Source: Cyanobium sp. FACHB-13342 (GTDB lineage Bacteria; Cyanobacteriota; Cyanobacteriia; PCC-6307; Cyanobiaceae). Taken from it: 64,000 bases of DNA. Numbering within the stretch: the stretch's first letter is position 1; every line of letters starts with the position of its first letter. Positions 42,153-44,100 of the stretch are shown in pieces. The notes below the pieces were generated by a model. That model was not told the origin of the DNA. It ran no database searches and saw nothing but the letters and a program-made list of their open reading frames with translations. The stretch spans positions 62,001-126,000 of the forward strand of contig NZ_JACJRT010000014.1 in NCBI RefSeq assembly GCF_014697415.1, in the 5' to 3' direction. A program made the position numbers and the translations under genes.

Positions 42153-42845
42153 ATGGACCAGGCCGTACGTCGAACCTACCTGGCTCTAGCGGGCGCCGGG
42201 CTGGCCCTGCTCACCCCCTGGGCCGGCGCCGCCAGCCTGTTCGACAGCAGGCCCATGGACAGCAGTCGCTTTGCGGTGCTGGCGCGGCCGGTGGGCCCCA
42301 GCGACTGGAACCTGCTGGTGCTGGAGCAGATCCAGGCCCAGCCCCTCTGCTGGCAACAACGGCCTGACGGCTTGGTGGACCCGGCCCTCAATCGCTTCAA
42401 CTTCACCGGCATCTGCAGCCGCTATCTCGACAGCAACGGCTATTCCCTGCGGATCGGCGGCCAGGACCTGGCCAGCCGCTACCGGCTGCAACTGCGCCAG
42501 AGCGGCACCGAGCTGCGACTGGAGGCCAGCACCACCAGCAATCCCACCGTGCTGGTGGTGGGCAGGGCGCACGTGCCCCTGCGCGACCGGGACGGCTTTG
42601 TGGCCTTGACCCTCGAGCCGGGCTGGGACCTGCAGCGGCGGGTGTTCAACAGCCAGACCCTCAGCCACATCTACTTCGCCAATCCCAGCCCCCTGCCCCA
42701 GCTGCTGGCCAAGGCAAGCGGCGCCCCCCTGGCCCTGCGGCCACCGGTGGCCCCGCCCAGCCTGCCGGGCCCAACCCGGACCAGTGGCAGCAGCCTGGTG
42801 GCCCGCGGGCCGATCCGACTGCCGGTGATCCCCTTCAGCGACTGA
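42153..42845 (+). CDS. DUF3747 family exported protein
   Basis: Protein of 230 aa with a signal peptide (ALAGAGLALLTPWAGAA) and the DUF3747 core SRFAVLARPVGPSDWNLLVLEQI, NRFNFTGICSRYLDSNGYSLRI and SHIYFANPSPLPQLL. The family is confined to cyanobacteria; function unknown, probably at the cell surface. A Pro-rich C-terminal tail follows. It is divergent from rnhA with a 58-bp gap. Confidence 0.88.
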   Translation: MDQAVRRTYLALAGAGLALLTPWAGAASLFDSRPMDSSRFAVLARPVGPSDWNLLVLEQIQAQPLCWQQRPDGLVDPALNRFNFTGICSRYLDSNGYSLRIGGQDLASRYRLQLRQSGTELRLEASTTSNPTVLVVGRAHVPLRDRDGFVALTLEPGWDLQRRVFNSQTLSHIYFANPSPLPQLLAKASGAPLALRPPVAPPSLPGPTRTSGSSLVARGPIRLPVIPFSD

Positions 42846-42931
42846 ATCATTCAGCGACTCAATCACGCGCCAGGGGTGGGGACAGTTGCCAGACAGGCCG
42901 ATCCCACCTCCCCCTCCCCAACCCAGGCCGT

Positions 42932-42937
42932 TATGGT
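42932..42937 (+). promoter_or_regulatory. possible -10 element of the candidate small RNA
   Basis: TATGGT lies about seven bases before the proposed 5' end at 42944. No good -35 is visible upstream in the C-rich sequence, which is common for cyanobacterial promoters. Assigned only by position relative to the RNA structure. Confidence 0.3.
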
Positions 42938-42943
42938 CTCAGC

Positions 42944-43040
42944 GTGTGAGGAGTGGGAACGCTCTTCCAGGGTCGAAACGAGGACAGACTCCCGGAATCG
43001 TTCCAACTCAGAGCCCTGCCTTCGGCGGGGCTTTTTTATT
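42944..43040 (+). ncRNA. candidate small RNA with Yfr1-complementary 5' end and intrinsic terminator
   Basis: Between the DUF3747 gene and rplL lies a structured sequence. 42951-42961 (GAGTGGGAACG) pairs with 42999-43009 (CGTTCCAACTC) at 10 of 11 positions, enclosing further stems (TTCC/GGAA, GGG/CCC) and the loop GAAACGAGGACA, then an intrinsic terminator. Its 5' segment 42944-42954 is GTGTGAGGAGT, the exact complement of ACUCCUCACAC, the conserved core of the cyanobacterial sRNA Yfr1. The purine-rich A-runs of the loop recall the Yfr2 (Cyano-1) family, but I cannot confirm membership. It could instead be a structured 3' UTR of DUF3747. Confidence 0.6.
43012..43040 (+). terminator. rho-independent terminator
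   Basis: GCCCTGCC (43013-43020), loop TTC, then GGCGGGGC (43024-43031) and TTTTTTATT. It ends the candidate small RNA or DUF3747 transcript and faces the rplL terminator 17 bases away. Confidence 0.85.
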
Positions 43041-43056
43041 GGCGCGGGGGGGCAGC

Positions 43057-43082
43057 AAAAAGCCGGCCCCAAAGGGCCGGCT
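43057..43082 (-). terminator. rho-independent terminator of the rplJ-rplL operon
   Basis: On the minus strand AGCCGGCCC, loop TTTG, GGGCCGGCT and then TTTTT. It lies 38 bases after the rplL stop. Confidence 0.85.
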
Positions 43083-43119
43083 GAGTTTTGGACAAGCAAG
43101 GGCCCAAGGGGCCCAGGGA

Positions 43120-43503
43120 TCACTTGATGGTGACCTTGCCGCCGGCTTCTTCCACAGCCTTCTTGATGGTTTCGGCTTCGCCTTTGGCGATGCCTTCCTT
43201 GATGGCGCAGGGAGCGCCTTCCACCAGGGCCTTGGCTTCACCCAGGCCGAGGCCGGTGGCCTCGCGGACGGCCTTCAGCACCTTGATCTTGGCGGCGGCG
43301 TCAAAGCTGTCGAGCATGACGTCGAATTCGGTCTTCTCTTCAACGGCTTCGGCAGCAGCTGCGGGAGCGGCGGCCATCACCACGCCGGCGGAAGCGGCGG
43401 CGGACACGCCGAAAGCCTCTTCGATCTGCTTGACGAGCTCGGAAGCCTCAAGCAGCGAAAGGGTTTTCAGCGATTCGAGAATCTTGTCGGTAGTAGCGGA
43501 CAT
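43120..43503 (-). CDS. rplL: 50S ribosomal protein L7/L12
   Basis: Stalk protein of 127 aa. N-terminal dimerisation helices ([19 protein letters not shown]), Ala-rich hinge and the C-terminal domain [20 protein letters not shown] with [15 protein letters not shown], which binds elongation factors. Usual length. It is the last gene of the operon, 69 bases after rplJ. Confidence 0.98.
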
Positions 43504-43572
43504 GGTTGGGAATCAGCAACAGATCTGTTTGTGAACAGTCGGATCGAGGGAGCTCGAACGCGCGGAATGCGA

Positions 43573-44100
43573 TCAGCCTTCGCCAGATTCGGCGTGCTGG
43601 TTGAGCGCCCGGGCAAGACCGGATGGAACCTCGTTGATGCCCACAGCCAGCTTGGTGGCCACGGCATTGATCGCACCGGCGATCTGGGCCATGAGCACCT
43701 CCTTGGAGGGCAGATCCCCGATGGCCTTGATGTCGGATTGGGAGAGGAGCTGACCTTCGAAAAGGCCTCCTTTCACTTCCGACTTCTTCGTGTCCTTCTG
43801 GAAGGACTGCACGGCCTTCACCGCACCACCCACGTCGCCCTTGACGAGCACGAAGGCGTTGGTGCCGGTGAGCAGGGAATCGAGATTCGACCAGGCGCTA
43901 TCGCCATCAATGGCTCGGCGCATCAAGGTGTTTTTGGTCACCTTGCACACACCGTTGCTGGCCTGCAGACGGGTCCGCAGATCAGACATCTCCTTGATGG
44001 TCAGGCCCTTGAAATCGAGGACCAGCGCCATTTCGGCCTCGCCGAGGAGCCCCTTGAGCTCTTCGACGATCTGTTGCTTGTTCTCCAGAGTGCGGCCCAT
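43573..44100 (-). CDS. rplJ: 50S ribosomal protein L10
   Basis: Base of the L12 stalk, 175 aa. It has the N-terminal [13 protein letters not shown] and [27 protein letters not shown] and a C-terminal helix that anchors L12 dimers. It is preceded by a long structured leader, the likely autoregulatory L10 leader. Confidence 0.98.

Follow-up and report, generated by a model that had tools for sequence, protein, structure and literature searches.

A Yfr2-family small RNA beside rplL in Cyanobium sp. FACHB-13342, a probable decoy of Yfr1 with a 5' end resembling porin leaders

Yfr2 RNAs are small RNAs (sRNAs) of cyanobacteria, and the Rfam motif Cyano-1 (RF01701) is described in the available part of PMC8400943 as the motif of this family. 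Yfr2 genes have a promoter and a terminator of their own, and their transcripts measure about 80-95 nt. In the portion of Voss et al. 2009 available to us (PMC2662882), Yfr2 is drawn with a 12-nt loop, a long stem and a bulge at position -4 relative to the loop. According to the accessible sections of PMC6778093, Yfr2 of Prochlorococcus MED4 pairs with the sRNA Yfr1 and relieves repression by Yfr1, and in E. coli MED4 Yfr2 restores a PMM1121 fusion repressed by Yfr1. Binding of Nostoc Yfr2 to Yfr1 in vitro is reported in the accessible part of PMC6974561, and the parts of both papers at hand give two porin mRNAs as Yfr1 targets in MED4. The same sections of PMC6778093 place Yfr1 between guaB and trxA and add to the network the Prochlorococcus Yfr10-type RNAs, which bear the Yfr1 motif, whereas the sRNA studied here bears its complement. 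They also report a pull-down with MED4 Yfr2 that gave 404 peaks in 302 mRNAs, so capture of Yfr1 may not be the sole role of Yfr2. As to position, yfr2 genes are described as lying at unconserved loci (PMC6778093), as having no fixed position (PMC1242208) and as lacking synteny (PMC2662882) in the portions of these papers available. Since both the Yfr2 family and its interaction with Yfr1 are published, the identity of the RNA described below is mostly a known answer.

We searched the genome of Cyanobium sp. FACHB-13342 (2,365,942 bases, 18 contigs) with the RF01701 covariance model. A single match was obtained at E up to 10, and it lies in the window, the whole 64-kb stretch of DNA analysed here (42940-43008, + strand, 46.4 bits against a gathering cut-off of 41, model positions 1-69 of 69). 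Judged by its sequence, the window RNA is a Yfr2-family sRNA and the sole RF01701 match in the assembly. The sRNA gene at 42944-43041 is very probably real, and as a member of the Yfr2 family it is an ordinary one. The features of the locus are listed in Table 1.

Table 1 Features of the Yfr2 locus in the window.
Feature	Position	Strand	Basis or remark
-10 box TATGGT	42932..42937	+	6 nt ahead of the inferred sRNA start at 42944
Yfr2-family sRNA, ~98 nt, both ends inferred	42944..43041	+	RF01701 match and fold
Anti-Yfr1 motif GTGTGAGGAGTG	42944..42955	+	perfect 12-nt complement to Yfr1 of the same genome
Interrupted stem bearing the 12-nt loop	42951..43009	+	predicted fold
12-nt loop GAAACGAGGACA, GTCG-type	42975..42986	+	predicted fold; GTCGAAAC invariant in 56 aligned sequences
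Intrinsic terminator, 11-pair hairpin then T run	43010..43041	+	fold and terminator scan
Terminator-like hairpin 3' of rplL, facing the sRNA terminator	43061..43082	-	terminator scan
rplL, ribosomal protein L7/L12, convergent neighbour	43120..43503	-	Pfam PF00542, PF16320; synteny
rplJ, ribosomal protein L10	43573..44100	-	Pfam PF00466
DUF3747 gene, same strand, ends 98 nt 5' of the sRNA	42153..42845	+	Pfam PF12565

For the stretch 42944-43041, the predicted fold has an energy of -43.1 kcal/mol (z -3.46), which none of 200 shuffles reached. It comprises seven unpaired nucleotides at the 5' end, an interrupted stem that carries a 12-nt loop, and an 11-pair terminator hairpin followed by a T run. 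The stem consists of 4 + 6 + 4 + 5 pairs with interruptions, and the loop is followed by three pairs and then a bulge, so that the predicted RNA shares with published Yfr2 the 12-nt loop on a long stem and the bulge four positions away from the loop. Like MED4 Yfr2-5 and Synechocystis Yfr2a-c, it has the 5' motif, a predicted terminator and a putative length of about 90-98 nt. The conserved, largely unpaired 5' element GUGUGAGGAG of the family is represented here by GTGTGAGGAGTG, of which nucleotides 1-7 are unpaired in the prediction and nucleotides 8-11 lie inside the basal helix. The loop of the window Yfr2 is of the GTCG type, in contrast to the GTGG type of these published RNAs. An earlier note, made from the DNA letters alone, had described a candidate small RNA with a stem of 10 of 11 pairs, a 12-nt loop and a strong intrinsic terminator, which could sponge or be targeted by Yfr1 or be a Yfr2-like RNA. 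The last of these suggestions agrees with the RF01701 score above the gathering cut-off, the terminator is recovered by both fold and scan, and the loop is as described, whereas the stem exceeds the length given in the note and takes in four bases of the motif.

The comparison with Rfam Cyano-1/Yfr2 and Yfr1 models that the note had advised gave RF01701 at the locus and RF01116 (Yfr1) elsewhere in the genome. Other assignments of the locus were rejected. It is not a new RNA family, since it matches Rfam RF01701. Nor is it a copy of Yfr1: the RF01116 match that exceeds the cut-off lies at C16:19936-19992, this locus is not among the five matches listed for that model, and neither ACUCCUCACAC between two stem-loops nor an RF01116 score above the cut-off was found for the window sRNA. 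Yfr1 carries the complement of the window sRNA motif and differs from it in structure. Yfr103, an abundant picocyanobacterial RNA, is a different RNA because its paralogs measure 290-328 nt in the accessible part of PMC5069720. The sub-threshold Rfam names Esr41 and suhB fall on - strand hairpins downstream of rplL. On that strand, two hairpins follow each other at window positions 43061-43114, and several sub-threshold Rfam names occur there.

To describe conservation, we aligned 56 copies, namely 55 rplL-linked copies and L261, which has DUF3747 and lacks rplL in its 3-kb locus; L252 was excluded. The 5' motif is GTGTGAGGAGTG in 37 copies, GTGTGAGGGGTG in 11 and some other form in 8. In GTGTGAGGGGTG, the commonest change, an A-U pair with Yfr1 becomes G-U. 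These counts are to be read with a bias towards the motif, because the RF01701 model by which copies were selected scores the motif columns. TANNNT stands 3-9 nt 5' of the motif in 55 of 56 copies, with a spacer of exactly 6 nt in 42; among control windows taken farther 5', 6 of 392 had such a box. A sigma-70 consensus scan of the region found no promoter, and therefore we claim no -35 element. Changes on both sides of a pair were seen in 8 of 9 pairs of the lower stem, 5 of 9 of the upper stem and 7 of 11 of the terminator; these are the covarying stems that the earlier note had proposed to look for in relatives. In total, 20 of 30 pairs of the window-copy structure were changed on both sides, a number that none of 500 shuffles reached (mean 12.2). 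Of the cells, 86.9% were paired, against at most 54.3% in slid versions. Both are figures that favour this structure because it was taken from one of the 56 aligned sequences. An independent consensus fold of 15 pairs contained the terminator and the upper stem but lacked the lower stem. At the level of the alignment, the 5' motif, the -10 box and the helices are thus conserved, with compensatory changes.

These data bear on whether the locus has an RNA of its own. It might be a mere 3' UTR and terminator of the DUF3747 gene, or a bidirectional terminator of rplKAJL. In the scanned region 42600-43600, no + strand terminator-like site was found upstream of 43010, as a DUF3747 3' UTR would have it, and the part of Table 1 of Axmann et al. 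2005 available to us (PMC1242208) lists for MIT9313 and WH8102 a structured cluster under the name 'Possible bi-directional terminator of the rplKAJL operon'. However, the -10 box is conserved, and among 50 loci with rplL or DUF3747, DUF3747 was found in 30 while 20 showed rplL without detected DUF3747; the 3' UTR explanation is weakened by both observations. Furthermore, rplL is served by a separate hairpin on the other strand, and the sRNA family matched here has mapped 5' ends in Synechocystis (PMC2662882) and MED4 (PMC1242208), as given in the accessible parts of these papers. We therefore consider a locus without an RNA of its own extremely unlikely.

The partner of the sRNA was found in the same genome. 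The RF01116 match at C16:19936-19992 (64.1 bits) is flanked by genes for IMP dehydrogenase (guaB) and thioredoxin (trxA) according to Pfam, and its CACTCCTCACAC is a perfect complement to the first 12 nt of the window sRNA. The earlier note had claimed an 11-nt perfect complement to the Yfr1 core at the 5' end; against the genome's own Yfr1 it extends to 12 nt. The MED4 pair, in contrast, has a bulged C and one mismatch, as given in the available section of PMC2518516. The Yfr1 11-mer ACTCCTCACAC was present in all 71 Yfr1 loci examined, these loci having been selected by Rfam. On the sRNA side, GTGTGAGGAGT at 42944-42954 (+) is an exact match and the sole one at up to one mismatch in the window; at that tolerance, shuffled windows had 0.76 matches on average and at least one match in 55 of 100, while about 0.03 exact matches are expected over both strands by arithmetic.

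Cofolding of Yfr1 and Yfr2 predicted an 11-bp duplex with sRNA nucleotides 1-11 at -14.6 kcal/mol. This energy is not exceptional: it was reached by 11 of 200 shuffled sequences and by 59 of the 1306 tiles of the window. When duplexes were scored by a cruder energy, which takes no account of internal folding, Yfr1:Yfr2 showed no signal (841 of 1000 shuffles as good). Pairing energy is weak evidence here, and the argument for the interaction rests on conservation.

We then compared the motif with the rest of the genome. Exact GTGTGAGGA occurs at four places genome-wide: the window sRNA, the complement of Yfr1, and two porin genes; the reversed pattern occurs twice. At C2:542-557 (L007) and C11:83675-83690 (L009), GTGTGAGGA ends 4 nt 5' of the porin ATG, and both proteins carry OprB and SLH domains (Pfam). 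The motif holds a Shine-Dalgarno-like GAGGA, so chance matches ahead of start codons come more easily; still, chance is an unlikely explanation for porin genes at both of the remaining places. The cofold energies of Yfr1 with the two porin leaders were -12.2 kcal/mol, which none of 200 shuffles reached, and -12.7 kcal/mol, which 3 of 200 did, and the leaders and Yfr2 cofolded onto overlapping bases of Yfr1. Yfr2 with the porin leaders gave -4.4 and -5.1 kcal/mol (80 and 78 of 200 shuffles as good). With the cruder duplex energy, one porin showed some signal (20 of 1000 shuffles as good) and the other none (451 of 1000).

Because GTGTGAGGA lies just ahead of two porin start codons, we read Yfr2 as a decoy that imitates porin leaders. 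The matches suggest, for this Cyanobium genome, that the Yfr2 5' end mimics those leaders. In the proposed mechanism, the 5' end of the sRNA would pair with the exposed CACTCCTCACAC of Yfr1, and abundant Yfr2 would occupy Yfr1 as a decoy and so free porin mRNA for translation. Titration of Yfr1 is the most likely role of Yfr2 on our analysis. We infer that the window Yfr2 is transcribed, binds Yfr1 in Cyanobium and affects porin output. Taken as a whole, an independent Yfr2 sRNA of about 98 nt, from 42944 to about 43041, that acts as a Yfr1 decoy imitating porin leaders is an interpretation we hold with good confidence. An anonymous hairpin can thus be placed in a known network, and the perfectly complementary triad of Yfr1, Yfr2 and porin leaders would offer a test case for decoy control of outer-membrane porins.

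Yfr2 might instead work mainly apart from Yfr1, with other mRNAs or with antisense RNAs as the targets of its loop, and with Yfr1 pairing controlling only the level of Yfr2 or its cleavage by RNase E. No invariant stretch of the 56 sequences is longer than that in the loop region, which fits such a role, as do the RNAs of 302 genes pulled down with MED4 Yfr2 and the blocking of RNase E cleavage of Yfr2 by Yfr1, both described in the available sections of PMC6778093. On the other hand, 48 of 56 copies retain the 5' motif when the G-U variant is included, and the motif matches two porin leaders in the same genome. We regard a mainly Yfr1-independent role as rather unlikely and prefer the decoy reading.

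The window Yfr2 differs from published copies in its place, which is repeated beside rplL. In a family sample of 201 genomes, RF01701 matched 187 at E up to 0.01 and RF01116 matched 159. Within the genus, RF01701 matches were found in 15 of 16 genomes, and all 15 have one copy with rplL in the 3-kb locus, the GTCGAAAC loop and the GTGTGAGGAGTG motif. We also examined 101 loci longer than 500 bases, which came from the best-scoring matches and from hand-picked genomes and are no random draw. Of these, 49 have rplL, namely 48 copies with the GTCGAAAC loop and L254 (GTCG-type), and none of 38 copies with the GTGGAAAC loop does. The 11 of 59 GTCG-loop copies without rplL are extra copies of the genus, copies of the small g11, g17 and g40 genomes, and L261. 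Eight genomes were inspected with their full set of 26 matches (E up to 0.1), and six of them had exactly one rplL-linked copy. Three genus genomes contain further Yfr2-like copies without rplL (L085, L086, L088 and the weak L087), which have GTGAGGAGA 5' ends.

A pattern scan of named genomes gave 106 stretches, and 80 were examined as loci. Convergent rplL was present in 77 of the 80, in 76 of them no more than 600 nt from the sRNA start and in one, near a contig end, at 829 nt; in 54 of the 80, DUF3747 preceded the sRNA on its strand. Since the pattern includes the motif and the loop, the scan measures place and says nothing on motif conservation. The loci without rplL were L385 (cut 147 nt downstream), L315 and L379, the last being a real exception. 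L315 belongs to Filamentous cyanobacterium LEGE 07170, the sole record with a filamentous title among the 80 loci.

From these comparisons, the window Yfr2 looks like a positional ortholog, convergent with rplJ-rplL. The fixed place might be explained if the RNA, by convergent transcription, regulated rplJ-rplL in cis, and the 77 of 80 pattern-scan loci with convergent rplL agree with this. However, the two facing terminators in the window do not overlap, so the mature sRNA and rplL RNAs need not pair; slow rearrangement can also keep a place; and in G017 and G056, two genomes with Yfr2, no copy adjoins rplL. Regulation in cis is thus very unlikely in our estimate.

One rplL-linked copy bears on the older literature. 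L427 (G071 C1:2204960-2205028), apparently from Prochlorococcus MIT9313 to judge by identical Yfr1 coordinates, is a second, rplL-linked Yfr2 of its genome that scores 40.2 bits, just below the Rfam cut-off. The table in PMC1242208 gives one yfr2 for MIT9313, and L427 is not among the entries of it available to us. The rplKAJL-terminator cluster of Axmann et al. may be the rplL-linked Yfr2. Our literature search, which did not extend to Gierga et al. 2009, found no work tying Yfr2 to rplL or rpl12. We tentatively propose, with slightly more doubt than confidence, that the rplL-linked GTCG-loop Yfr2 of Cyanobium/Synechococcus-like picocyanobacteria is one orthologous gene apart from the mobile GTGG-loop copies, a dedicated Yfr1 decoy mimicking porin starts and retained next to the ribosomal-protein operon, which in MIT9313 has gone unnoticed or been classed as a terminator since 2005. 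If so, one positional ortholog would stand out in a family rich in paralogs, and the published description of yfr2 loci as unconserved would need correcting for one copy.

Finally, we asked whether the Yfr2 motif decays in genomes without an Rfam Yfr1 match; the comparison yielded no simple pattern. An RF01116 match was absent from 42 of 201 genomes (20 listed, the other 22 inferred by elimination). In 40 of these (all except G033 and G172), renewed searches gave no match above the RF01116 cut-off, and 15 of the 40 had weak ones (E up to 1). ACTCCTCACAC was present in 20 of 21 scanned genomes of this set. Its context in g9 is partly the antisense of Yfr2 itself, and elsewhere it consists of Yfr10-like hairpins; in L289 (G010), ACTCCTCACAC lies in apparently other sequence, and G025 has a diverged Yfr1 at the guaB/trxA place.

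In 7 of 10 g9 genomes, which have no RF01116 match above the cut-off, a near-identical stretch carries the Yfr1 11-mer ACTCCTCACAC followed by a terminator-like hairpin (L306, L307, L296, L305, L292, L297 and L299), with no guaB or trxA hit in the locus. Further ACTCCTCACAC matches were found in G063 C45 and G176 C100. The g9 Yfr2 copies have GTGTGAGGAGTGTG in 6 of 7 cases. The ACTCCTCACAC stretch of g9 is possibly an unnamed substitute for Yfr1 or Yfr10. In g11, g14, g17 and g40, likewise without an over-cut-off RF01116 match, a GAC...GTC-type hairpin has the ACTCCTCACAC 11-mer in its loop and is mostly followed by a terminator, and these loci (L281-L284, L286-L288, L290, L291 and L301-L303) are Yfr10-like.
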